A stretch of DNA of 64,000 nucleotides, from positions 24,390-88,389 of IMG/VR virus record IMGVR_UViG_3300023178_000023. One strand, 5' to 3'. The notes beneath the pieces were generated by a model, which saw only the letters and a list, made by a program, of their open reading frames with translations, was not told the DNA's origin and searched no databases. The stretch is from a virus. The position numbers and the translations under genes were made by a program. Shown here in pieces: positions 1 through 64,000 of this stretch (its first letter is position 1; every line of letters begins with the position of its first letter).

Positions 1-840
1 TTGGATCAGACTCATAAGTTTGATGGCCCAAGTCAAAATTGGAATTTTATTTCTAATGGAAAACCACAATCAAGAATTTACAATAAAGAATATTTTATAA
101 CTTTAAACCAATATGATACTCCACAGTCATTTGTAGTTTCTTCAAAAACCTCAAAAATACCTGTCACAAATATGACTCTTAGAATTTATAGAGGTTCTAC
201 TGTAAATATAAACTTTACAGGACAAGATGTTTCTAGATTATACATTACTAGAGATGATGGTGGTAGTTTCACTTCTGAGAATTATTTTAGAGAATATAGA
301 GAAGGGATTGAAAATAATAGATTGTCAAATGGATTATTGACATTTAATGTTCCTATGGATGCGCCTAATAGATTATATTATCAATCTTCTAAGTATAGAG
401 ATGTGAGAGGTTCTATTGATATTTTAAATAGGGAAGATGAGTATTATGTTGAACATTCTGATAAAAATTCCTTACAGCAAAGAAGCGGCAATAGAGTAGG
501 ACAACTTGCTAGAGTTGGAAGTGATTTTTATATTTGGAACGGAAATATTAAAACTATAAACAATTTTATTAGTACTTGGGAAAAATTGACAACTGATAGT
601 AAAGTTCTTCATTTAGACATTGCAAAAAAAATTCCTAAACATTATATACACACAGAATATGACCATATTATTTCTTCCGAAACATATACACATTTATCCG
701 ATCAAGAAAAAAAATTATATAAAAAATATTCATCATATGAATATGAATTTGATCTAAATGAAAATAATAGAATAATAAAAATTATGAGAAGAGAAGTTCT
801 TTCAGAATTTTTGAAAGAATGGGAAAGGATTTCTAAGTAA
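1..840 (+). CDS. 53: gp53-like baseplate wedge protein (5'-truncated by window)
   Basis: The frame is open from base 1, so the true start lies upstream and only the last 279 residues are seen. The C-terminal ~60 residues (a Tyr/Glu-rich stretch, then NENNRIIKIMRREVLSEFLK) resemble the end of T4-like gp53, where an Asn-Glu-x-x-Arg-x-Ile segment precedes a final amphipathic helix. gp53 joins neighbouring baseplate wedges into the ring. Position fits: in T4 gene 53 lies just before gene 5, and here it precedes the gp27- and gp5-like genes. The middle (about residues 54-146) is extra beta-rich sequence that looks like a degenerate cupredoxin-type domain (ends DAPNRLYYQSSKYRDVRGSI) without the copper ligands. 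The stop TAA shares its last A with the next ATG, so translation is probably coupled. The family call rests on the C-terminus and synteny only. Confidence 0.6.
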   Translation: MDQTHKFDGPSQNWNFISNGKPQSRIYNKEYFITLNQYDTPQSFVVSSKTSKIPVTNMTLRIYRGSTVNINFTGQDVSRLYITRDDGGSFTSENYFREYREGIENNRLSNGLLTFNVPMDAPNRLYYQSSKYRDVRGSIDILNREDEYYVEHSDKNSLQQRSGNRVGQLARVGSDFYIWNGNIKTINNFISTWEKLTTDSKVLHLDIAKKIPKHYIHTEYDHIISSETYTHLSDQEKKLYKKYSSYEYEFDLNENNRIIKIMRREVLSEFLKEWERISK

Positions 841-46200: not shown

Positions 46201-48469
46201 TCCATCCGATATAGTTTTAAACACAGAACTATTTTATGAAAATCTAAAAACAATAAATTTATCAAATTTGGAATTTAATGAAATTCTTAAAACGGTTGAT
46301 ATTTCACAAAAAGATTTTTATGAAGAATTAAAACTTGGAAATATTACACAGAAAGATTTTTATGAAATTGTAAAATCTATTTTTGAAAAAGAAAAAGTTT
46401 TCTATGAAATTCCAAGAAACATAATTCTTGGAGACAAAACATGGAACGAAAAAATAAAAATTATAGAAATTAATTATCCAAAAACTTCTTTTTTTGAACG
46501 AGCAAAAGATATTAGATTTGACGCCAAACCATTCTATACAGAGACTTTAAGTAAAACATACATTAATAAAATATTTTTCGTAGATATGGATATGTGGAAT
46601 AAAACTCTAAATTTCTCAGGATTTGAATTAGAAACTCAAGATGTATCATATTTTATTGAACAATATTTTATGCAAACGAATGCGGTTACTCCAACAATTG
46701 GGAAAACGATATTTGGCAAAAAAATGTTGGAAGAAATATTCAGGCCGAACTTTAGAATTATAGAGAAAGTATTAGAATTTTTCTTCGATTCTTTTGTTGG
46801 TGTTTCGTCTAATTTATTCGATGTGAATAAATTTCAACCAACTTTTTATGACAAAATTACTTCTTTTCATCCCAGAAATGGGGGTTCAAACGCATATGGA
46901 CATGAGGTATTAGAAAATGGTAGAAGTTTAATAGCTAGATCAAAAAAACCTGTTTTAAGTGAATATGTGGTTGAAAATAATTTTGAAGCTGCTGGACGAT
47001 CAGGCAGACACGAAACAAATGTTTATAGTGAAACTCAAGTTATAACAGACATTAATTCAAATTTTTTATTTGAATTTTCTACAGTCGATTGGAATTTAGA
47101 AACTAATAGTAAAATGAATGAGATTTGGGCTTTTAATAATGAAAATAATAAGTTTAACTTTTTATATGATATAGAAGCTATGGAAGGTAGAATACCAGAA
47201 TGTTTAACTCTTACTTCGACAGGAAGATTGACAGGAAAGCTTTCGGAAACTGATAAGTTTTTAAGAAAGTATGCTTTTGAGCCTTGGGTAAAAACTCAGG
47301 GATTTACTAATTCGAATGGAGAATTTGTATCACATTTTGATAGTTTGGATTATGATTATACTGATTTTGAAGTAGTAGATCCTAGAGAATTTAGTGTGCG
47401 ATTGGTGGGAAGAAATATTACAACTGGTACTATTGACATTATTGCTGTAAATGATGGTGATGAGTTGGTGCCAGGTGAGGTTGTTAGACAAGGTCTTTCT
47501 AATTTTGTCGTAGGACCAAAAGTAACAACTTTCAATAAAGATGTTAATTTAGGAAATGGAATAGTAAATAAAACAATTTTGCGTTATGAATTAGAAAGAT
47601 TAGAAGGCGACATCAACATAACCAGAATTGAAAGGGTTCTTACCGATGTCTTTGTAACATCCTCTAGCATATTAATTAATAACATCGCTGAATTAAATGA
47701 ACAGATTCTTTTTTCGGAAAATTTACAAACCACTGAGGTTTTGTTACAAAGAAGGAATAAATTACAATCTTTATTGGATGCGGTTGGGCCGGATGAAGGA
47801 ATTTTTGCCACCGAAACGGCATCAGAAACTGTTGAAGTAGAGACAATTGAACAAGAAGATGGAACACAGTTTTATGTAGATGATTTTCTTACAGATAATT
47901 CTGGTGCAGTTATAAAACAAGTAACTCTCATTTTCAGAATATATAATAACTATTCATTTGATAGAGATTTATTCATTCATAAATCTCCACAGATAGATGA
48001 TTCTCTATTTGCTTCTAGAACTGAGTGGTTAGAGGCAAACAGAGAAAATAATAATTTCAGATATAGTTCTTTGATAAATAATAGAGCAATAGATAGTGAA
48101 GTTATTGATGTGGTTAGAAATTATTATAACTCAAAAATATCAGAAGTGGAATATAATGCTAGGAAAGCTGAACTAACAGAATTAAGAGAATACACAAATC
48201 CAGAACAATACAATAAATATATGAATTTCCTAGATTCTTTATCTAGAGATGGGACTAATTATGACCTTTCAAAACTTTTAGATGTTGATTATTTTACAAA
48301 AGAGTTTCCAATACTACCTTCTAAATTTGAATACTTGGAAAATATTGCAAATGAAAACGGAACATTTACATTGAATTGTGAATATGAAGTGGATGAAAAA
48401 ACATTCTATGAAGCCACAGATGATATTAGAATAATAAGAGGATACCCAGTATATGCCAGCTGTAACTAG
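43277..48469 (+). CDS. large fibre-like structural protein with ConA-like domain and aromatic 14-residue repeats
   Basis: 1730 residues; family not recognised. The first ~270 residues are mixed alpha/beta (PQVQIRGGTKVQARTRRIDN at the start). About 420-600 is a concanavalin A-like sandwich: YELETQVSSTGRDDDAIGVV, GFAKDEDYEYTLSAVRV, then FINSRFGFSTYSQSN and FTNISF. A long helical region runs ~600-940 (LVEIIEGKDAAKRYVEFISS). About 941-1082 holds roughly ten 13-16-residue units of the pattern F-(Y/N)-E-x-x-K-x-I (QKDFYEELKLGNIT, QKDFYEIVKSIFEK, EKVFYEIPRNIILG). The C-terminal third includes small beta domains (VRLVGRNITTGTIDIIAVND; 'GDELVPGEVV') and ends RIIRGYPVYASCN. It lies 6 bases after the acidic repeat protein, so the two are surely co-expressed. 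Its end overlaps the PAAR gene by 17 bases. Confidence 0.75.
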   Translation: MPQVQIRGGTKVQARTRRIDNIIFDSVAEVTVQYVNYYYDESKEKNIALEKLRTSITFETITSKLEYNHLELDFLEGTTSPYVPIGTESMEKFATVSAPPIDYVAIHNEFLPGKFVSSKNHRERFSGDDSSRFVVLDDNFRKTATMPLRHVHTLNNPNDSGPGDAFHFSILSRNILTENPKVRVSVYRSTLEYEDAIENLDEFQRGLSSVFVQSFDYSIEGVGWNRFVINLRTLNIPIGNCLLWFVIERLPIIIENPFDIPSGEYNESFNETNIQIETIVDDNSETKIYRFLSSIDDWIDNDTLTTRPFSIQINGVDLTLDVDFSYQLFKHRETIRKLEITFSDDVLPLTQEGELSSFSGVLTVEPRTTGVNSYAILSNWYKFSHGAIFTDGSAIYPSIPSEIDSWQVNADDAISYTRNSRSYIGFVSPDPIESYELETQVSSTGRDDDAIGVVIGFAKDEDYEYTLSAVRVHGGMFGGVTWMLATNIAQTISFNGRTISDKISSHRWYLRTPAGEIDYETIPNIGRNWSNTPTGAKIKIRKEGNIIKAWTSQMNSDVIDPASLIEIDLNEYEDTKKFINSRFGFSTYSQSNSKFTNISFSPIIGETNLEDIKAGELFVGGFATEIASTEVKNLNPKANHEFIDSITAERFIIDGPKVAKEKFNFITFELTSAIDTDSENFIDLIKPSLYAGTILDYTNISMLLKTKKLTFTHNPFTGFRIDYLTENIDSQLVSGESLVDILNRYISPTNDLFAAQKLVEIIEGKDAAKRYVEFISSEMSQNIIQNISGEFTSTGVSIENISSEFAISQNISKKIIEVGYAGIKYEFSYDPIDRVQNLDSITKELNLSEFISISDIASIQNYGRELNRAVDILKEQDLVMDIQSGLYYFEPQDYLNDITKSMYFGKPKDSIIPINYGFQKYTDSTEKYKKYIELSKDILFEFEPFAENPIDILFNSELFIEKPKDIEYDTLWMNAPSDIVLNTELFYENLKTINLSNLEFNEILKTVDISQKDFYEELKLGNITQKDFYEIVKSIFEKEKVFYEIPRNIILGDKTWNEKIKIIEINYPKTSFFERAKDIRFDAKPFYTETLSKTYINKIFFVDMDMWNKTLNFSGFELETQDVSYFIEQYFMQTNAVTPTIGKTIFGKKMLEEIFRPNFRIIEKVLEFFFDSFVGVSSNLFDVNKFQPTFYDKITSFHPRNGGSNAYGHEVLENGRSLIARSKKPVLSEYVVENNFEAAGRSGRHETNVYSETQVITDINSNFLFEFSTVDWNLETNSKMNEIWAFNNENNKFNFLYDIEAMEGRIPECLTLTSTGRLTGKLSETDKFLRKYAFEPWVKTQGFTNSNGEFVSHFDSLDYDYTDFEVVDPREFSVRLVGRNITTGTIDIIAVNDGDELVPGEVVRQGLSNFVVGPKVTTFNKDVNLGNGIVNKTILRYELERLEGDINITRIERVLTDVFVTSSSILINNIAELNEQILFSENLQTTEVLLQRRNKLQSLLDAVGPDEGIFATETASETVEVETIEQEDGTQFYVDDFLTDNSGAVIKQVTLIFRIYNNYSFDRDLFIHKSPQIDDSLFASRTEWLEANRENNNFRYSSLINNRAIDSEVIDVVRNYYNSKISEVEYNARKAELTELREYTNPEQYNKYMNFLDSLSRDGTNYDLSKLLDVDYFTKEFPILPSKFEYLENIANENGTFTLNCEYEVDEKTFYEATDDIRIIRGYPVYASCN
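46100..46522 (+). repeat. degenerate 14-residue coding repeats (aromatic type)
   Basis: About ten successive units of mostly 42 bases (one of 39, one of 48) encode F/W-(Y/N)-E-x-x-K-x-I patterns. They are conserved at protein level only; the DNA copies have diverged, unlike the 42/84-bp repeats of the gene upstream. Confidence 0.75.
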
Positions 48470-48761
48470 ATTCGGAGACTCCTGCACAGGACACGGTTGT
48501 TTCCCCCCAAGAAAAAATATAGCCGCAAGCGAAAATGTGTTTGTAAATAGTATTGGTGCTCATAGACAGGGAGATGGGTGGGCGGTTCATTGTTGTCCTC
48601 CGCCAACTTGTCATGGTTCTGTGCTTGCGATGGGTTCTCCTTCAGTATATGTAAATGGAAAACAATTAGGAAGAATTGGAGATCCAGTTGCGTGTGGGTC
48701 TACTGTTGCAAGTGGATCTGGAAATGTTTTTGCCGGTGGTTCAACTATATCTGTTTTGTGA
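48453..48761 (+). CDS. PAAR-domain spike-tip protein
   Basis: 102 residues, a complete PAAR protein. It starts MPAVTRFGDSCTGHGCFPPR, followed by NVFVNSIGAHRQGD, then CHGSVLAMGSPSVYVNGKQL, RIGDPVACGS and SGNVFAGG. These are the 'G.D...(G/H)...V.VNG....R.GD......C' strands of the family. PAAR proteins cap the beta-helical needle of phage tails and type VI secretion spikes (T4 gp5.4). Conserved His/Cys residues (H in AHRQGD, CHGS, VACGS) could hold the tip metal ion. It would sit on the C-terminus of the gp5-like protein. The ATG lies inside the end of the previous gene in another frame, suggesting translational coupling. It is far from gene 5, unlike the T4 layout where 5.4 is next to 5. Confidence 0.92.
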   Translation: MPAVTRFGDSCTGHGCFPPRKNIAASENVFVNSIGAHRQGDGWAVHCCPPPTCHGSVLAMGSPSVYVNGKQLGRIGDPVACGSTVASGSGNVFAGGSTISVL

Positions 48762-53812: not shown

Positions 53813-56800
53813 ATGACTAATGTAATTCCAATAAGAGTTATAGTAGATGGTTCTGGAGACACAACTGGTTTAAGTGAATTTCTTGTAAACGAAACAGTAG
53901 GTCTGGACCATGGCGGAACCGGCGCAACAGATGCGGTCGGTGCAAGAACGAATCTTGGACTTTCTACTATCGCAGCAACTGGAAGTTGGACTGACCTCTT
54001 AAATAAACCAGATACTGATGCAATTCCAGAAGGTTCTACCAACCTTTATTTTACAGATGAAAGAGTGGACGATAGAGTTGCCGCTCTTTTTGTTGATGGA
54101 ACTGGAATTCAAAAAACATATGATGACGTTGGAAATCTTCTAAACATTTCTATAGACTTTAGCGAATTCGACTCTGATGATATTGTCGAAGGCGCAGTCA
54201 ATACATTCCTTGCAAATAGAACAACTGATAATATTCCAGAAGGTTCAACAAATCTTTATTTTACAGAAACTAGATCAAGAAATTCCATTAGTGCAACTGG
54301 AAGTATTAATTATGATCCAGCTACAGGTGTAATAAGTTATACCCAAGGCGATACTGATACAATCGTAGAAGGCACAACAAATCTCTATTTCACAAATGAA
54401 CGTGTCGATGACAGAGTTGCTGCTCTTATTCAAGACGGTGTTGGCATTGTCAAAAATTATGATGATGCTGGTAATCTATTAGATATTGCTATTAATTTTA
54501 CAGAGTTTGATACTGATGATATTATTGAAGGTAGTGTAAATACATATCTTGCAAACAGAACTACAGATGATATCCCAGAGGGTTCGACAAACCTTTACTA
54601 TACAGACGCAAGAGCAGACGCTAGAATCGCCGCTGCAAGTGTTGATGCACTATCTGATGTAGATACTACAACAACTGCACCAAACACTGGAGAGGCGCTT
54701 GTATGGGACGGAACAAACTTTGTTCCTGGCGTTACATTTAGTCAAGGAGATTTTGATACTGCATTTACCAATAAAGACGCCTCCGATTTAAATCTTGGTA
54801 CTCCAACAGATGGAAGTCTGAGTGATGGAGCTATAATTTTAGATTCTACAGATAAAACAGTAGATGCTATTGATGAATTGAATGAGGCGTTAAACAACAT
54901 TAGAATTGGTGTATTTGTAAGAAGTGTATCATTCACCGCATCTCCACTTGCGGGGGGTGAAGGAACTACAGTAACTTTATCTTTGAATGTTGATGGTTCT
55001 CCAAATAGATATGATATTGATTGGGGAGATGGTTCTAACACAAATGGCACAACCGACTCAACACCAAGTCATACATATACATCCAATGCTGGAAGTCCTT
55101 ATACAGTGACCGTTAGAGCATATAATAGTTCAGGGTCGGGTGCTGGAAGCGAAGCAACAGCAACTAATACAGATTATATTATCATTTATACAGCAGACCC
55201 TAGCACCGCATTTGCACTTTATAGAACTGTTTCTGGTGGTTCTTCTCTTAGCGGAAACGATCTTTATGTTATAGAGGGGCAAAGTTTATATTTACAAAAT
55301 ATTACTACAAATACTTTAATGGCAGATGTTACATATAATGTGAATTGGGGAGATGGAAGCGCACTTGATAATATTGCATCTGATGTAGCAGACGGCGGTG
55401 TGAGTGGTTCTAGATTACAACATACATGGGGTGCAAATACAGATACAGGAACTGGAAGAGATACAGTTATATTAACATTAGACTCACACACCACAGCCGA
55501 TCCTTCTGTAATTCCAACTAGTACATCCCTGCAACTTAAAGTATATGATCCTAATATCTCAACTCCAGCGGGATTGAGCTCAAAGTCAATAAGTTTTACT
55601 GGTGATGTTGGAACTTCTCCTAAACTCGTATCTGGATTTACAGATAATACTGGAGGCACTTCTCTTGTGGCAGGAAGCAATGTAGATAGAACAACATCAA
55701 CTTCTGGTTCTGTTCAGTCTACTACAATTTCTACTTTTGCATATAATGCAGATGGTGGAACACTTGACGCAATTGTAAATGGTTCTTCAGATGGACAAAT
55801 TACTTTTGATGGTAATGATAATTCTGGAACAGTCACTAGTCTTGTTGTTACAGAAGAAAGAGATTACAATTTATTAGACTCTGATGGTTCCAGTATTTCA
55901 TTCACTTCCAGTGTATATCACCCAGATTTATATAAAGGATTCAAGGCTAGAGTTTCCAAGAGCGCAGCGACACTTAGTATTGGGATAAATAGTTTTCAAT
56001 TATCTCACTCGACAACTGGAAATACAAATCTTATAGAATTTGTAAAAGACGATTTAACATCTACACCAACAGTTACTTCTGGCACTCTTTCTGAGAATGT
56101 TGGCAATTACAGATATATTTCTGGAATTCCGTATTATACTTCAGGTTCGTCTTTGACCTTGAGCGGAGTTACTATTAATAATTTTATAGGTCAAACGTAT
56201 AGAGATACATCTAGTGTTGTGACTGTACAGAGCGGAACTAACCAAGAAGGAACTTCTCAGTCTGCCATTTCTACTCAAAATTATAATTATTCTCAAATTG
56301 ATGGATCTGTTACTTTCTTGAGTGATGGAATTCCTATTGCAAACACTGGAAATGGTTCTGCATACTCAATTGGAGATTTGACTGTTAATATTACGGGTTC
56401 TGGTGTTAGGACTGTCGAAACTATAAGTATTAGTGCTAATAATGTAAACGGAAGCGGAAGTTCGGTGCAAAACAATACAGCTTTACAGGTTCATACATCA
56501 TCTCAATCAAACATAGATGAAACAAATATTAGCGTTTCAAGTTCTCTGGGTTCTGGTTTCAATGATGGTGGAGTTAGAGTTTTTGATTTTAATTTAGCAA
56601 CCACCACAAATCCCTCAATAAATGATGCAAACAATTACTATACAAGTAATCCATACACTGAAGGTTCTGATCCAGGCGTTGTTGGAACACAGGAAGCGAC
56701 ACTTAGATTAGGAGATATTGAACACAATACAAATGATTACAGTAGTGGATATCTTCCAGTAGGACCAGATCGTTCTGGTGATACTGGTCAACAATATTTT

Positions 56801-57172
56801 ACTTTTGCTTTCAGACGCACAGTAGTAGCAAACTTCAATATAAATATAACAAGTCCTAGTGGTGTGGCGGGTGTTTGGATTGCAGCTCCAGGCACAGCCA
56901 TAGGAGCCACTAGTTCTATAAACGGATGGTTAGATTGTGGTGTTCAATATGCTGGTGCTGGAATCCCAGGCGCAAACACTGGCTCGGGTGGAAATGGTAG
57001 CAATGGTTGTGCCTCAACTGGTTCTGATAGGATTCTCCCAAATGCTTCTTTGAGCGGAAGTTATACCATGACACTAGGAACTGAAAATCTTACAAATGCT
57101 ACTGGAAATGTTGCACTTGTACGGATTGCATTAGATTCTGGTCAATCTATAACATCACTTAGTGTGTCATAG
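53813..57172 (+). CDS. giant tail fibre with TNLYFT repeats and PKD-like domains
   Basis: 1119 residues. The N-terminus (IPIRVIVDGSGDTTGLSEFL) is followed by the classic fibre motif GGTGATDAVGARTNLGL. Residues ~75-275 contain four TNLY(F/Y)T(D/E/N) units with the shared insert 'VDDRVAALI.DG.GI.K.YDDAGNLL', also found in the next gene. About 372-440 and 500-570 look like PKD/Ig-type beta sandwiches: DIDWGDGSNTNG then YTVTVRAYNSSG, and VNWGDGSA. The C-terminal ~500 residues are Ser/Thr/Gly-rich beta domains ending in LVRIALDSGQSITSLSVS, plausibly the receptor-binding end (YFTFAFRRTVVANFNI region). It follows the hairpin at 53753. The next gene starts 8 bases after its stop with GGGG as RBS. Confidence 0.8.
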   Translation: MTNVIPIRVIVDGSGDTTGLSEFLVNETVGLDHGGTGATDAVGARTNLGLSTIAATGSWTDLLNKPDTDAIPEGSTNLYFTDERVDDRVAALFVDGTGIQKTYDDVGNLLNISIDFSEFDSDDIVEGAVNTFLANRTTDNIPEGSTNLYFTETRSRNSISATGSINYDPATGVISYTQGDTDTIVEGTTNLYFTNERVDDRVAALIQDGVGIVKNYDDAGNLLDIAINFTEFDTDDIIEGSVNTYLANRTTDDIPEGSTNLYYTDARADARIAAASVDALSDVDTTTTAPNTGEALVWDGTNFVPGVTFSQGDFDTAFTNKDASDLNLGTPTDGSLSDGAIILDSTDKTVDAIDELNEALNNIRIGVFVRSVSFTASPLAGGEGTTVTLSLNVDGSPNRYDIDWGDGSNTNGTTDSTPSHTYTSNAGSPYTVTVRAYNSSGSGAGSEATATNTDYIIIYTADPSTAFALYRTVSGGSSLSGNDLYVIEGQSLYLQNITTNTLMADVTYNVNWGDGSALDNIASDVADGGVSGSRLQHTWGANTDTGTGRDTVILTLDSHTTADPSVIPTSTSLQLKVYDPNISTPAGLSSKSISFTGDVGTSPKLVSGFTDNTGGTSLVAGSNVDRTTSTSGSVQSTTISTFAYNADGGTLDAIVNGSSDGQITFDGNDNSGTVTSLVVTEERDYNLLDSDGSSISFTSSVYHPDLYKGFKARVSKSAATLSIGINSFQLSHSTTGNTNLIEFVKDDLTSTPTVTSGTLSENVGNYRYISGIPYYTSGSSLTLSGVTINNFIGQTYRDTSSVVTVQSGTNQEGTSQSAISTQNYNYSQIDGSVTFLSDGIPIANTGNGSAYSIGDLTVNITGSGVRTVETISISANNVNGSGSSVQNNTALQVHTSSQSNIDETNISVSSSLGSGFNDGGVRVFDFNLATTTNPSINDANNYYTSNPYTEGSDPGVVGTQEATLRLGDIEHNTNDYSSGYLPVGPDRSGDTGQQYFTFAFRRTVVANFNINITSPSGVAGVWIAAPGTAIGATSSINGWLDCGVQYAGAGIPGANTGSGGNGSNGCASTGSDRILPNASLSGSYTMTLGTENLTNATGNVALVRIALDSGQSITSLSVS

Positions 57173-57180
57173 GGGAAGTC

Positions 57181-60100
57181 ATGGCGATAAACGACAATCA
57201 AAAACTTGACTTTCTTTGGAAGAAACTTGGTTATGGTGTTTCAAAGACTGACATAAATTCAATAAAAAACGCCACAAACGAAAGTATTCCTAGTCCACTT
57301 TTGATTAGGGGCGATAGGCTCTGGGCCGAAGCAGACCAAATTCCCACCACAATTCCATCTTCAGACACTTCACAAGTACAATTAGAAACTATAGAAACAA
57401 CTGCTGATGCAACTGCATCTGCGAATAGAACTTGGAAAACTGGTAATGGTGATTGGATACCACCAGAATTTGGTTCTACATATCAGATAAAAGTATATCT
57501 TGATAATTCAGGAGCTGCAAATCCGGCTTCTACAGGAACACAACTATTTGCTGCTGGTTCTGGTAATAATGATGAATGGTTTTTTGATTATCAATCTGGT
57601 GTTCTAAACTTTATTGGAGATAATCTTCCAAGTGGAATTAGTGGAAAAACTGTATATATTATTGGTGCAAGATATATTGGCAATTTTGGTATATCTGGAA
57701 CAACTGATGGAATTGTTGAAGGTGCCACAAATCTCTACTATACAGATGAGAGAGTTGATGACAGAGTTGCAAATTTAATTTTAGATGGGCAGGGAATTAC
57801 AAAAAGTTATGATGATGCTGGGAATCTTCTAAACATTGCGATAGATTTTACTGAATTTGATTCGGATGATATTATTGAGGGTGCTGTAAACACTTTCTTA
57901 GCATCCAGAACTACTGATGATATTCCAGAAGGCTCAACCAATCTTTACTATACAGATGCTAGAGTTGACACTAATTTTGCAACTAAAACTACAACCGATC
58001 TTACGGAAGGCACTAATCTTTACTATACAGATGCTAGAGTTGACACTAATTTTGCAACTAAAACTACAACCGATCTTACGGAAGGCACTAATCTTTACTA
58101 TACAGATGCTAGAGTACAAACTTATTTAACTGCAAATAACTATGCAACCATCTCTACAGTAACACAACAGGTCGCAGCACAAATTGGAGCAATTCAATCC
58201 GATCTTGATGATGAGATTTATGATAGAGAACAAGCAGATTTAAATCTTCAAAGTCAGATTGATAATTTAGTACTGAACGACTTGACGGATGTAAGTGTAA
58301 CTTCTCCAACTTCTGGAGATGCTCTTGTATGGAATGGAACTTCTTGGATTCCGCAAGCTCCATTTAGTCAAGCAGATTTTGATTCTGCTTTTGCTGCTAA
58401 AACTACAACTGATTTAACTGAAGGTACAAACCTTTATTATACTCAGACAAGATTCGACTCCGCATTTACTGCAAAATCTACTACGGACCTTTCTGAAGGA
58501 ACAAATCTTTATTATACAGATGAAAGAGTTGATGATCGTGTCGCAGCCCTAATTCAAGATGGAGTTGGGATTACTAAAACTTATGACGATGCTGGTAATC
58601 TTCTAAACATTGCTATAGATTTTACTGAATTTGATTCTGATGATATCATTGAAGGTGCTGTAAATACTTTCTTGGCCTCTAGAACCACTGACGATATTCC
58701 AGAGGGTTCAACAAATCTTTATTACACAGAAGCAAGATTTGATACAAGACTGGCAACAAAATCTACAACTGATCTTGCAGAAGGTACAAACTTATATTTC
58801 ACAGAAGAAAGAGTAGATGATAGAGTTGCCGCATTAATTCAAGCAGGAGAAGATATTTCTGTTGTATATGATGATGTTGCAAATACTCTAACGATTGCAC
58901 TTGCATCTAGTGTTGATGGTTTAGATTTATCAAATAATAGTACTGATGACCTTTCAGAAGGTTCTACCAATCTTTATTACACTGATGCAAGAGTTGATGC
59001 GAACTTTGCAACCAAGACTACCACAGATTTGACTGAAGGTACAAATTTATACTATACTGATGCTAGATTTGATGTCAGACTTGCAACTAAGACAACAACC
59101 GATTTAACCGAAGGTACAAATCTCTATTATACAGAAGCCAGAGTTGATGCAAATATTGCAACAAAAACTACTGATGATATTACTGAAGGTGCAACAAATC
59201 TTTACTATACAGATGCTAGAGTACAAACTTATTTAACTGCAAATAACTATGCAACCATCTCTACAGTAACACAACAGGTCGCAGCACAAATCGGATCTTT
59301 ACAATCAGATTTGGACGATGAAATATATGATAGAGAACAGGGCGATCTTGCTTTACAAAATCAAATAGATTCTTTAACAACAACCGATGTTGCAGAGGGA
59401 ACAAATCTCTACTATACAGATGCTAGATTTGACGCTAGATTGGCTGCAAAAACTACAACCGATTTAACTGAAGGCACAAATCTTTATTATACGGACGCAA
59501 GAGTTCAAACAAAACTTGGTGATGTTTCTGGACATATTATTCCAGATACAGATGTAACTTATGATTTAGGTAGCACAACCAACAAATTCCGCGATTTATA
59601 TTTGAGTGGAAGTTCAATTTATTTGGGAAGTTTACAATTATCTGATAACAATGGAGCTCTTGAAGTTACCGCAAGTGGTTCTACAGAAGTATTTGCGACA
59701 GAGACATATGTTGATACTGCAATCTCAAATCTTATAGATACTGCTCCAACCACTCTTGATACTCTCAATGAACTTGCTGCAGCACTAGGAGATGATCCAA
59801 ATTTTAGTACTACAATTACTAATTTGATTGGAACAAAACTTGCAACAGCAGATTTCAATACAACTGCTGACACTTGGTTGGGAACAAAATCTACAACTGA
59901 TTTATCAGAAGGCACCAATCTTTATTACACAGATGCAAGAGTAGATGCTAGAATTACTGCATCCAATCCATATGATTCTTCTGATTTTGATACAGACTTT
60001 TCTGGAAAGTCTACAACAGATTTAACTGAAGGTACAAATCTTTACTATACGGACGCTAGGGCGGACGCTAGAGTTGCTGCTGCAAATATTGGAGTATTGA

Positions 60101-63100
60101 ATGATGTAAATACAACCGGCATTGCTACTGGAGATTTCCTTCTGTATGATGGTAGTGAATTTCTACCAGTCGATTTTGCAACTGAAGTAACCACATATGC
60201 AGACTCTCGTATTAATCTTGCAAGTATACAAGACTTATCAGATGTAGATGCAGTTGATACACCAGCAAATGGAGATGTTTTATTATATGATGCTGGAAAT
60301 AGTAATTTTGGATTTATTAATCTTGGTAATGAAATTAATTCATATTTCGACATACGATTTGCAACAAAAAATACAGACGATTTAACAGAAGGTACTACCA
60401 ATCTTTATTACACAGACGCCAGAGTCGGTGCATATCTGGTTGCAAACAATTATGCTACTACTTCATATGTAACAAATCTTGTAAACACACAAATTGCAAT
60501 TGTAAATTCCAATTTAGATGACGAGATTTATAATAGAGAACAAGCAGATATTGATTTACAAAATCAAATCAACTCAAAGACTTCTTATACAACAAGCGAT
60601 TTTGATACAGATTTTGCAACGAAATCCACTACAGATTTGGCAGAAGGAACAAATCTTTACTATACAGATGCTAGAGCTGATGCAAGAATTACTACATTCG
60701 GTGCAGTAACGCAGAGTGATATTGATGCATCTATTGCTGCTTTGGTTGACTCAGCGCCGACAACACTTGATACTCTAAATGAACTAGCAGCTGCGCTGGG
60801 AGATGATCCTAACTTTGCGACTACGATTACAAATTCAATTGCAACCAAACTTGCAATTGCTGATTTCAATACAACTGCCGACACTTGGTTAGGAACAAAA
60901 TCTACAACTGATTTAGCTGAAGGCACGAATCTATATTATACAGATGCAAGAGTTGATTCAAGAATTAATTTACAAACCGGCACAAATTTGTCTTTGGCCA
61001 ATAAAACTACTGATGATTTGACTGAAGGTTCTACAAATTTCTATTATACAGATGCCAGATTTGATACAAGACTTGCTACGAAATCAACAACTGATCTTGC
61101 TGAAGGAACCAACCTTTATTATACAGACGCTAGATTTGATATTAGATTGTCCACAAAAACCACAGACAATCTTACTGAAGGTTCTACAAATCTCTATTAC
61201 ACAGACGCCAGAGTTGATGCAAGAATAACTGCGGCCAATTTGTTTGATGGACAATTTAGCAGTTTAACAAATACTCCAACTACACTTGCTGGTTACGGTA
61301 TTACAGACGGAGTTTCTACTTCTCAAGTAACTTCTATTGTAACACAACAAGTCGCAGCTCAAACTGGAGCAATTCAATCCGATCTTGATGATGAGATTTA
61401 TGATAGAGAACAGGCAGACATTGGATTGCAGAATCAAATAGATGCTTTGACAACAACTGATGTTGCTGAAGGAACCAATCTCTATTATACAGATGCAAGA
61501 GTTCAATCTTATTTAACTACACAAGGTATTGCCACAGAAACACTTACTTCACTTGGGATTGCTGGAAATGTTCTTACATACACAGATGAGAATGGAAATA
61601 CCACAAATATTGATTTATCTCTCTATTTGGATGATACAAATCTTGCAAGACTTACTTCGGGATCGCTTGCTGCAAATGGTATTGCTACGTTTATAAGAGA
61701 TGATGCATCCACATTTACTGTAGATTTCAGTCAATTTTTTGATGATACAAATTTATCAAGAGTTGATAATGCGACTTTCTCAAATGGTACACTGACACTC
61801 ACTAGGGATGATTCATCGACTGCAGCTAGTGTAAATTTAGACGGTAGATACCTACAAAACCTTGTAGCTCAAACGACAGATGATCTTTCAGAGGGATCTA
61901 CAAATCTTTATTATACAGATGCTAGAGTTAGAGATCAACTTTACAGTACTGTATCAGTAACAACTTCTAGTGGAAACTTCTATATTGATGGCGAACAACA
62001 AGGAATTGTAACACTCCAGCCAGGTAGAACTTATCGTTTCGATCAGTCAGATGCGTCAAATAACTCACATCCAATTAGATTTTCTGAAGTTTCAGATGGA
62101 ACACATGCTGGTGGTGGCGCAACAGAATACACAACAGGTGTAACTGTTAATGGTACGGCAGGAAATGCTGGTGCTTATGTTGAGTTTGTGGTCACAAATG
62201 CTACTCCAAGATTGTATTATTACTGTGCGAATCACAGCGGCATGGGTGGAAAAGTCAGTGTCGGTAAGGAAATGTTTGTTGAACGTATCACTTCAGATAC
62301 TTGGATTACGGGCCCTATCCAAACTACTTCGGTGAATGTGGGTACTGGTGGTTCAATCAATGCATCTACCGCGACACTAGACTTTACTCACACTACTGTA
62401 AACTTTAGTGGTGCAACTGTAGGTGGTCTTAGTAATTCTGATGTTGGTTTGGCAAATATCGCAGATAACGCACAGGGTGTAGTTGTTACTGGTAAGGTTG
62501 CTGCCGATAGTTTAGATATAGGTACTGGCGGTTCAATCAACGCACAACTTGCAACATTAGATTTTACTCATACTTTGGTAAATTTTAGTGGCGCAACTGT
62601 CGGTGGACTTGGTGATACTATTCAAGATGAAGTAGATTTTCATTTGAATAAAAATAATTCGAGTGGACAAACTATTATATCTGATGGACAAATACTAAGT
62701 TGGAATGCAACAGGTGGATTACAAGGTACAGGTGATTATGAGTGGATTGCACAATCTGGTGGTGGAGCATCTGTTACTACAAGCTCTACTGCACCAACAA
62801 GTCCTAATGATGGAGATTTGTGGTTCGATACTGACGAATTAAAAACATATGTATATTATAATGACGGAACATCTTCTCAATGGGTACAATCAAATCCAAC
62901 AGGAGCTATAGGTGGTGGTGGAACATCTATTGAAATTTCTGATGTTGCTCCATCAAGTCCATCAGCAGGAGATTTGTGGTTTGATTCTGATGCTCTTAAA
63001 ACATTCATTTATTATGATGATGGTAGTGGGGCTCAATGGATTGAATCTTCTGGCGGCGGCGGTTCTTCTATTGCGGATACTGATGCATTACCAGAGGGCT

Positions 63101-64000
63101 CTACAAACCTTTACTATACAGATGCAAGAGTTCAATCGGTTAGTATAAATGAAGTTGTAGAAGATACAACTCCCACATTAGGCGGCAACTTAAATTCTGG
63201 TGGATTTAATATTACTAATATTAGTGCAGATGGTTATAGTCTGCCAGTTGCAGATGGTACAAATCGCCAAGTTATTATGACAGATGGTAGCGGTACGTTA
63301 TCGTTTGAAAATTTAGACACAATTCATACTGAAGTAACAAACCAAACTGGGTCAACTATTCTTAAAGGCACACCTGTTTATCAAACAGGAACAAGTGGCA
63401 ATGCAATGACAATTGCACCAGCTGATGCAAGTAGTTCAGCTACAATGCCAGCGGTTGGTGTTTTAGAACAAGATTTAGTATCAGGTGCTACTGGATTTGT
63501 TATCCATATGGGTAAAATTTCTGGAGTTGATACAAGTGCGTTCAACGAAGGAGACATAATTTATGTTGCAGTCGGTGGTGGTTACACAAATACCCCTCCA
63601 GTTGGTGAAAGTAATCTATTACAAAACTTGGGCCGTATCACAAAAGTTCATGCATCCAACGGCGGCGGCGTTATTATGGGTGCAGGACGTATAAATGCTG
63701 TACCCAATCTAAATGACGGTAACATCTTTATTGGTGATTCAAACAATCAAGCAACTACTGCATCATTAAATACCTCTGTACAAAATTATCTATCAAATGT
63801 TTCTGGTAGTATCATTCCAGATACAGATGTAACTTATGACTTGGGTAGTTCAACTCATAAATTTAGAGATTTGTATCTAAGTGGAAATAGTATTATTCTT
63901 GGTGGAATTACTCTCACAGAATCTTCTGGTTCTCTTTTAGTAACACCAACTGCTGGTGGAGCAAACAACACTTTCGCAACGGAAAGTTATGTAGATACTG
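57181..64000 (+). CDS. giant repeat tail fibre with cupredoxin-like domain (open at window end)
   Basis: ATG57181 (after AGGGGAAG) opens a frame that stays open to the last base, giving at least 2273 residues; the stop lies outside. The start is MAINDNQKLDFLWKKLGYGV. About 25 copies of a TNLYYTDAR(V/F) unit (spacing ~25 residues when tandem) occur between ~180 and ~1580, with one more near 1980, interleaved with 'DDEIYDREQAD', 'YDLGSTTNKFRDLYLSG' and 'TLDTLNELAAALGDDPNF' modules. Residues ~1591-1695 form a cupredoxin-like domain with H1630, C1682, H1685 and M1688 (LYYYCANHSGMGGKVSV). Two copies of a 'GDLWFD(T/S)..LKT(Y/F)(V/I)YY.DG' module follow at ~1870-1960, then a 'GTPVYQTGTSGNAMTIAPAD' domain. 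A trimeric shaft is the likely architecture (family knowledge). Confidence 0.88.
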   Translation, partial: MAINDNQKLDFLWKKLGYGVSKTDINSIKNATNESIPSPLLIRGDRLWAEADQIPTTIPSSDTSQVQLETIETTADATASANRTWKTGNGDWIPPEFGSTYQIKVYLDNSGAANPASTGTQLFAAGSGNNDEWFFDYQSGVLNFIGDNLPSGISGKTVYIIGARYIGNFGISGTTDGIVEGATNLYYTDERVDDRVANLILDGQGITKSYDDAGNLLNIAIDFTEFDSDDIIEGAVNTFLASRTTDDIPEGSTNLYYTDARVDTNFATKTTTDLTEGTNLYYTDARVDTNFATKTTTDLTEGTNLYYTDARVQTYLTANNYATISTVTQQVAAQIGAIQSDLDDEIYDREQADLNLQSQIDNLVLNDLTDVSVTSPTSGDALVWNGTSWIPQAPFSQADFDSAFAAKTTTDLTEGTNLYYTQTRFDSAFTAKSTTDLSEGTNLYYTDERVDDRVAALIQDGVGITKTYDDAGNLLNIAIDFTEFDSDDIIEGAVNTFLASRTTDDIPEGSTNLYYTEARFDTRLATKSTTDLAEGTNLYFTEERVDDRVAALIQAGEDISVVYDDVANTLTIALASSVDGLDLSNNSTDDLSEGSTNLYYTDARVDANFATKTTTDLTEGTNLYYTDARFDVRLATKTTTDLTEGTNLYYTEARVDANIATKTTDDITEGATNLYYTDARVQTYLTANNYATISTVTQQVAAQIGSLQSDLDDEIYDREQGDLALQNQIDSLTTTDVAEGTNLYYTDARFDARLAAKTTTDLTEGTNLYYTDARVQTKLGDVSGHIIPDTDVTYDLGSTTNKFRDLYLSGSSIYLGSLQLSDNNGALEVTASGSTEVFATETYVDTAISNLIDTAPTTLDTLNELAAALGDDPNFSTTITNLIGTKLATADFNTTADTWLGTKSTTDLSEGTNLYYTDARVDARITASNPYDSSDFDTDFSGKSTTDLTEGTNLYYTDARADARVAAANIGVLNDVNTTGIATGDFLLYDGSEFLPVDFATEVTTYADSRINLASIQDLSDVDAVDTPANGDVLLYDAGNSNFGFINLGNEINSYFDIRFATKNTDDLTEGTTNLYYTDARVGAYLVANNYATTSYVTNLVNTQIAIVNSNLDDEIYNREQADIDLQNQINSKTSYTTSDFDTDFATKSTTDLAEGTNLYYTDARADARITTFGAVTQSDIDASIAALVDSAPTTLDTLNELAAALGDDPNFATTITNSIATKLAIADFNTTADTWLGTKSTTDLAEGTNLYYTDARVDSRINLQTGTNLSLANKTTDDLTEGSTNFYYTDARFDTRLATKSTTDLAEGTNLYYTDARFDIRLSTKTTDNLTEGSTNLYYTDARVDARITAANLFDGQFSSLTNTPTTLAGYGITDGVSTSQVTSIVTQQVAAQTGAIQSDLDDEIYDREQADIGLQNQIDALTTTDVAEGTNLYYTDARVQSYLTTQGIATETLTSLGIAGNVLTYTDENGNTTNIDLSLYLDDTNLARLTSGSLAANGIATFIRDDASTFTVDFSQFFDDTNLSRVDNATFSNGTLTLTRDDSSTAASVNLDGRYLQNLVAQTTDDLSEGSTNLYYTDARVRDQLYSTVSVTTSSGNFYIDGEQQGIVTLQPGRTYRFDQSDASNNSHPIRFSEVSDGTHAGGGATEYTTGVTVNGTAGNAGAYVEFVVTNATPRLYYYCANHSGMGGKVSVGKEMFVERITSDTWITGPIQTTSVNVGTGGSINASTATLDFTHTTVNFSGATVGGLSNSDVGLANIADNAQGVVVTGKVAADSLDIGTGGSINAQLATLDFTHTLVNFSGATVGGLGDTIQDEVDFHLNKNNSSGQTIISDGQILSWNATGGLQGTGDYEWIAQSGGGASVTTSSTAPTSPNDGDLWFDTDELKTYVYYNDGTSSQWVQSNPTGAIGGGGTSIEISDVAPSSPSAGDLWFDSDALKTFIYYDDGSGAQWIESSGGGGSSIADTDALPEGSTNLYYTDARVQSVSINEVVEDTTPTLGGNLNSGGFNITNISADGYSLPVADGTNRQVIMTDGSGTLSFENLDTIHTEVTNQTGSTILKGTPVYQTGTSGNAMTIAPADASSSATMPAVGVLEQDLVSGATGFVIHMGKISGVDTSAFNEGDIIYVAVGGGYTNTPPVGESNLLQNLGRITKVHASNGGGVIMGAGRINAVPNLNDGNIFIGDSNNQATTASLNTSVQNYLSNVSGSIIPDTDVTYDLGSSTHKFRDLYLSGNSIILGGITLTESSGSLLVTPTAGGANNTFATESYVDT
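57940..58089 (+). repeat. 75-bp tandem repeat, two exact copies
   Basis: 57940-58014 and 58015-58089 are identical and begin AATCTTTACTATACAGATGC; a third partial copy begins at 58090. Each encodes one TNLYYTDARVD unit with its 25-residue spacing. Confidence 0.92.
58090..58184 (+). repeat. 95-bp direct repeat, copy 1
   Basis: Identical to 59197-59291. It encodes the end of a TNLYYTDARV unit plus QTYLTANNYATISTVTQQVA. The continuation (GGAGCAATTCAATCCGATCT...) recurs near 61366. Confidence 0.9.
59197..59291 (+). repeat. 95-bp direct repeat, copy 2
   Basis: Base-for-base copy of 58090-58184, 1107 bases downstream, in the same frame of the same fibre gene. The exact identity suggests recent duplication or recombination between modules. 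Confidence 0.9.

Follow-up and report, generated by a model that had tools for sequence, protein, structure and literature searches.

A conserved cupredoxin-like domain with a putative type 1 metal site in the shaft of a viral tail fibre

The last gene of the window, a 64,000-nucleotide stretch of virus record IMGVR_UViG_3300023178_000023, encodes the very long tail fibre of a marine phage, and in the middle of the fibre shaft we found a cupredoxin-like domain with the ligand order of a type 1 copper site. We consider it quite probable that this domain holds a real, selected type-1-like metal site, and we assign a probability of roughly 0.6 to the complete reading, namely that a real, selected metal site lies mid-shaft and that its metal is most likely copper. 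Cupredoxins are textbook electron carriers. A search of the open-access literature, in which absence is no proof, found no report of a virion cupredoxin; as far as this literature shows, cupredoxins have not previously been described as parts of virus particles.

The fibre gene lies on the plus strand (57181..64000) and was assigned to PHROG tail fibre/structural families. Its open reading frame of 2273 aa is incomplete, because the source contig of 88,389 nucleotides stops at the same point as the window, and its shaft is built of NLYYTDAR-type repeats. The cupredoxin-like domain occupies residues about 1590-1696 (61951..62268, plus strand). In the translation around the site (...SNNSHPIRFSE...RLYYYCANHSGMGGKVSV...), the four ligands named in the initial annotation were found exactly where it had placed them, all on the plus strand: H1630, the first ligand, within NSHPIRF and with Pro next after the His (62068..62070); C1682 (62224..62226); H1685 (62233..62235); and the axial ligand M1688 (62242..62244). 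C1682 is the sole Cys among the 2273 fibre residues, and the loop, C-x2-H-x2-M, is of the amicyanin type. The C..H..M pattern occurred a single time among the window ORFs that are 60 aa or longer. With this single occurrence, the lone Cys and the retention of these four residues across hundreds of viral loci, the proposal of a cupredoxin-like domain with type 1 ligand order in a tail fibre goes beyond chance. The gene ahead of the fibre (53813-57172) contains PKD-like repeat stretches (DWGDG...HTYT) recognized by eye, and a PAAR-motif protein (phrog_281) is encoded a short way upstream of the fibre genes (48453-48761).

A position within the receptor-binding part of the fibre was not supported. 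The nearest relative, L001, has a complete fibre gene of 2970 aa with two Cys residues and a separate C-terminal end, and the Cys of the domain is residue 1715 of its 2970. The C-terminal position expected of a receptor-binding tip was thus not seen in this full-length protein; the domain lies mid-protein and is therefore not the tip. The window domain and that of L001 are 99% identical as protein and differ by 18 synonymous codon changes and one replacement. The corresponding dN/dS (0.0037/0.26) gives a ratio below those of both the upstream (0.018/0.15) and the downstream (0.14/0.77) flank.

A first viral scan returned 166 relatives, in which ligand conservation appeared to be 100%. Because one of its search patterns itself contained the ligands, we set this figure aside and used ligand-blind and ligand-masked searches instead. 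With the His-to-Cys segment alone as the query, a ligand-blind search recovered 488 relatives among at least 600 pattern matches, and 69 of the 70 distinct viral domains read from its best 80 loci had all four ligands; the sole exception, L127, carries Asn, Ser, Asn and Leu in their place. Another ligand-blind scan was queried with the N-terminal part of the domain. Finally, a hidden Markov model in which the four ligand columns had been masked was applied to viral, phage and cell loci, and His, Cys, His and Met (HCHM) were found in 263 of 296 distinct domains.

IMG/VR loci are redundant and related, which clustering lessens but does not abolish; of the 98 clusters formed at less than 70% identity, 86 had HCHM, two HCHQ and one DCHL, one was truncated, and the remainder lacked the Cys and the second His. 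These last two residues were kept or lost jointly in all 97 scorable clusters (Fisher 7e-12, kinship ignored), which, to judge from the sequences, is the behaviour expected of a unit. Homologues without ligands, which the initial annotation had regarded as telling against a metal site, do therefore exist, about a tenth of the divergent clusters being without some of them, but HCHM predominates and the Cys and second His disappear only together. Gln replaced the axial Met in L206 (ORF residues 813-919) and L231 (ORF residues 1500-1634), a substitution familiar from the axial position of stellacyanins. The ligand Cys was the lone Cys of the domain in 254 of 259 intact copies, and so has no disulfide partner there.

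Structure prediction supported the fold proposed at the outset. The AlphaFold2 model (pLDDT 87, pTM 0.81) is a nine-stranded Greek-key beta sandwich of the cupredoxin kind; its input was an alignment of 34 relatives, so that features common to these are built into it. One strand (98-102) ends at C102 and is followed by a loop (103-108) and a further strand (109-114), while H50 immediately precedes strand 52-55. This is the cupredoxin topology, in which the Cys closes a strand, the second His and the Met lie in the next loop and the first His is beside the neighbouring strand. One loop of the model, residues 61-70, had a pLDDT of 66. In a Foldseek comparison with the PDB, the top 17 matches were all blue-copper or multicopper proteins, among them rusticyanin, copper nitrite reductase, pseudoazurin with an engineered amicyanin loop, and multicopper oxidases, at moderate TM-scores of about 0.5. 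Sequence searches of the PDB gave weak pseudoazurin matches amid antibody noise, and turned up no solved structure of the domain from a phage. A search of BFVD yielded 62 structural matches at E <=0.001, and none of the rows listed carries a cupredoxin name. The BFVD entries that match the model include A0A481Z6J5, A0A481YVH3 and A0A481Z7Q7, small proteins with a beta sandwich that come from pithovirus-like and marseillevirus-like giant viruses.

Plastocyanin-family domains were drawn from genomes of Marine Group II, SAR86 and candidate phyla, and a profile-profile comparison with them gave a probability of 95.7% (P 8.5e-9). The Cys, second His and Met lined up, the first His being off by one residue. 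The best of 40 column-permuted controls reached P 0.011 and the reversed control P 0.0022; masking the ligand positions and their loop weakened the link (47.7%, P 1.9e-4). At the level of sequence, the window domain is tied to Pfam PF00127 (Copper-bind) through this kind of comparison only: it scored 13.4 bits (E 0.11) against a cut-off of 21.2 bits, and among the 34 relatives one passed E 0.01, the best value being 0.0057. Searches of Pfam and NCBIfam with the domain gave weak matches and nothing stronger, and matches to Pfam CBM_4_9 and gp45 were judged to be due to chance.

Similar to the plastocyanin/azurin family (PF00127), amicyanin and pseudoazurin, the fibre domain combines a cupredoxin fold with the order His...Cys-x2-His-x2-Met, at the amicyanin spacing. 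It differs from PF00127 members in being inserted in a phage protein of ~3,000 residues, in falling below the Pfam cut-off and in having a long stretch between His and Cys in which the pattern GTHxGGxxYTTGV is conserved. Its first His is followed by Pro, in contrast to the His-Asn of plastocyanin and azurin; the type 1 His of laccases also precedes Pro (HPxHLHG). Rusticyanin and laccase type 1 domains were the best Foldseek matches; the fibre domain has neither type 2/3 copper ligands nor the oxidase arrangement of domains. A plastocyanin is encoded by marine cyanophages as the auxiliary gene petE (PMC3037559), which is a stand-alone photosynthesis gene, whereas the present domain is part of virion tail proteins. 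Pfam PF25489 (At5g54830-like), whose name comes from a plant protein, was matched by one A2 member (E 2.3e-4) and, weakly and below the cut-off, by the gp9-type domain (E 0.026); the window domain does not match it.

The domain is used repeatedly in the tail, and a second subfamily was linked to the first by profile comparison (99.8%, P 2e-28). Its model had a pLDDT of 95, and all 50 PDB matches listed for it are type 1 copper proteins. It occurred in 310 of 50,697 phage records, all of them marine cyanophages or marine viruses, in baseplate wedge-tail fibre connector or related proteins. The four ligands were kept by every one of the 60 distinct IMG/VR copies that were read, a count obtained with scan patterns that partly contained the ligands and with one copy confirmed by eye, and they were present in all six reference phages checked. 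In L001, which is near-identical to the window virus, a second-subfamily domain is found in the gene after the fibre and also in a third gene. With these two further structural genes besides the fibre, one virus would have at least three intact predicted sites. The intact second-subfamily domains of this near-identical virus lie at L001:10079-11704 and in L370.

Other copies are degenerate. The first gene of the window (1-840), of the baseplate/fibre-connector (gp9) type, carries a second-subfamily domain (157..426, plus strand) in which all four ligands are lost (VSR-LYIT...YYQSSKYRDVRG). Further ligand-less copies were found in L127, in L212 and in tandem in gp7, where the gp7-like protein of S-CAM22 and P-SSM7 has one intact and one ligand-less copy. 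The S-CAM22 gp7-like baseplate protein (L164:412-3285) also matches Pfam YHYH (PF14240, E 7.6e-16). Metal is not essential for the fold, as its pattern persists in some paralogues that have no ligands.

These copies bear on the suggestion, already made in the initial annotation, that the fold serves purely as a scaffold. In this reading, the four residues would be conserved for packing or loop shape and the virion copy would be free of metal. Such a use is real for the degenerate paralogues, including that in the first gene of the window, which retain the fold pattern. For the fibre copy, it would be consistent with the very low free copper of the cytoplasm in which phages are assembled, and with the F, Y and several Gly positions that are conserved as strongly as the ligands. 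However, packing does not demand exactly His, Cys, His and Met, a lone Cys, joint loss of the Cys and second His, or a swap of axial Met for Gln. We therefore disfavour the scaffold for the fibre copy and regard it as fairly unlikely there.

If a metal is bound, it need not be copper in its usual form, and Zn, Cu(I) or another soft metal in the predicted site is possible. The His2-Cys-Met set of apo-cupredoxins can take Zn or Hg, and zinc is more available than copper in the cytoplasm. The axial Met/Gln position and the amicyanin-type loop nevertheless form a copper pattern, and we think it quite unlikely that the site is a plain structural one for zinc or another soft metal instead of copper.

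Electron-transfer cupredoxins have this ligand set, and stand-alone, single-domain SAR86 lipoproteins of ~180 aa carry the domain, as might be expected if it were a working redox or copper-sensing centre, whose redox state or occupancy altered the conformation of the fibre or its adhesion to the host surface or which transferred electrons. Against this, no partner and no redox gene context were found, the position is mid-shaft, and several copies per virus sit in structural genes, so that we judge this reading very unlikely overall. Electron transfer in the middle of a shaft is unlikely; for copper sensing and metal ferrying, which are possible, we found no support.

That tail fibres can contain metal is itself an accepted idea, based on the HxH iron sites of T4 gp37 and Alteromonas phage R22Y (PMC11705849), from which the fibre domain differs in fold and ligands; no HxH motif was found in the window fibre. 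A copper counterpart to the Ferrojan-horse idea for iron, in which virion copper or another metal helps the phage to exploit host metal uptake or surface copper proteins, could appeal to tail-fibre iron, which is known in T4 gp37 and has been proposed in marine phages (PMC11705849), and to the domain relatives on surface proteins of marine microbes, but the domain is mid-shaft and not at the tip, and we consider ferrying most improbable.

The reading that we prefer is that a cupredoxin module was inserted mid-shaft and that its intact site of two His, Cys and Met is under selection. Phages are assembled in a cytoplasm with very low free copper. Because this compartment is almost copper-free and the affinity of type 1 sites is very high, we infer that the site would fill with metal after lysis or virion release. 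The bound metal would then tie the His strand and the Cys-His-Met loop together, fixing the shape and stability of one fibre bead. The domain would thus act as a modular extracellular structural or adhesion unit, most likely stabilising and shaping one bead, and its place in the middle of a ~3,000-residue fibre, with no obvious redox partner, argues for such a unit over an electron carrier.

Among cultured phages, the domain was found in the tail fibres of those that infect Synechococcus, Prochlorococcus, Pelagibacter and Methylophilales; the cyanophages S-TIM5, S-RIM2 and P-SSM2 are cultured carriers, and the named hosts of all domain-bearing cultured phages are marine; gp7- and gp9-like baseplate proteins of marine phages contain it as well. 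Cell relatives are surface-type proteins of marine microbes (SAR86, Marine Group II and Bacteroidetes). Matches were found in 29 of the 61 SAR86 genomes searched, in lipoproteins of ~180 aa and in adhesin-like giants, and very long adhesin-like ORFs (>3,400 aa) of Bacteroidetes and SAR86 carry the domain (L182, L190, L191 and L358-L361). Lipoproteins of Marine Group II archaea (L193, L194, L199, L203-L205, L207 and L210) share a lipobox, collagen-like repeats, a C-terminal cupredoxin domain and conserved chromosomal neighbours. In L354-L356, also from Marine Group II, a related N-terminal domain is followed by what by eye are fasciclin-like repeats, and L355 has in addition a canonical copper-bind domain near its C terminus. 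Phage and cell labels were intermixed in a tree of the domain, with 10 changes for 16 cell clusters as compared to 15 in shuffles (minimum 12); because the domain is too short, the tree leaves the direction of transfer between phages and cells unsettled.

Many marine viruses keep an intact domain in their tails, as some marine microbes do on their surfaces, which suggests that marine phage particles with the domain may carry copper or a similar metal. A broader and rather doubtful extension is that many marine phage virions are copper carriers, in which several structural proteins (fibre, connector and baseplate wedge) have type 1 sites that are filled after release and affect host attachment or the copper chemistry of the ocean, the modules being common to phages and to proteins on the surface of marine microbes. 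Marine virions rank with the most abundant biological particles; were the sites loaded, these virions would carry copper, and this would have a bearing on fibre assembly, on adsorption and on trace-metal chemistry.
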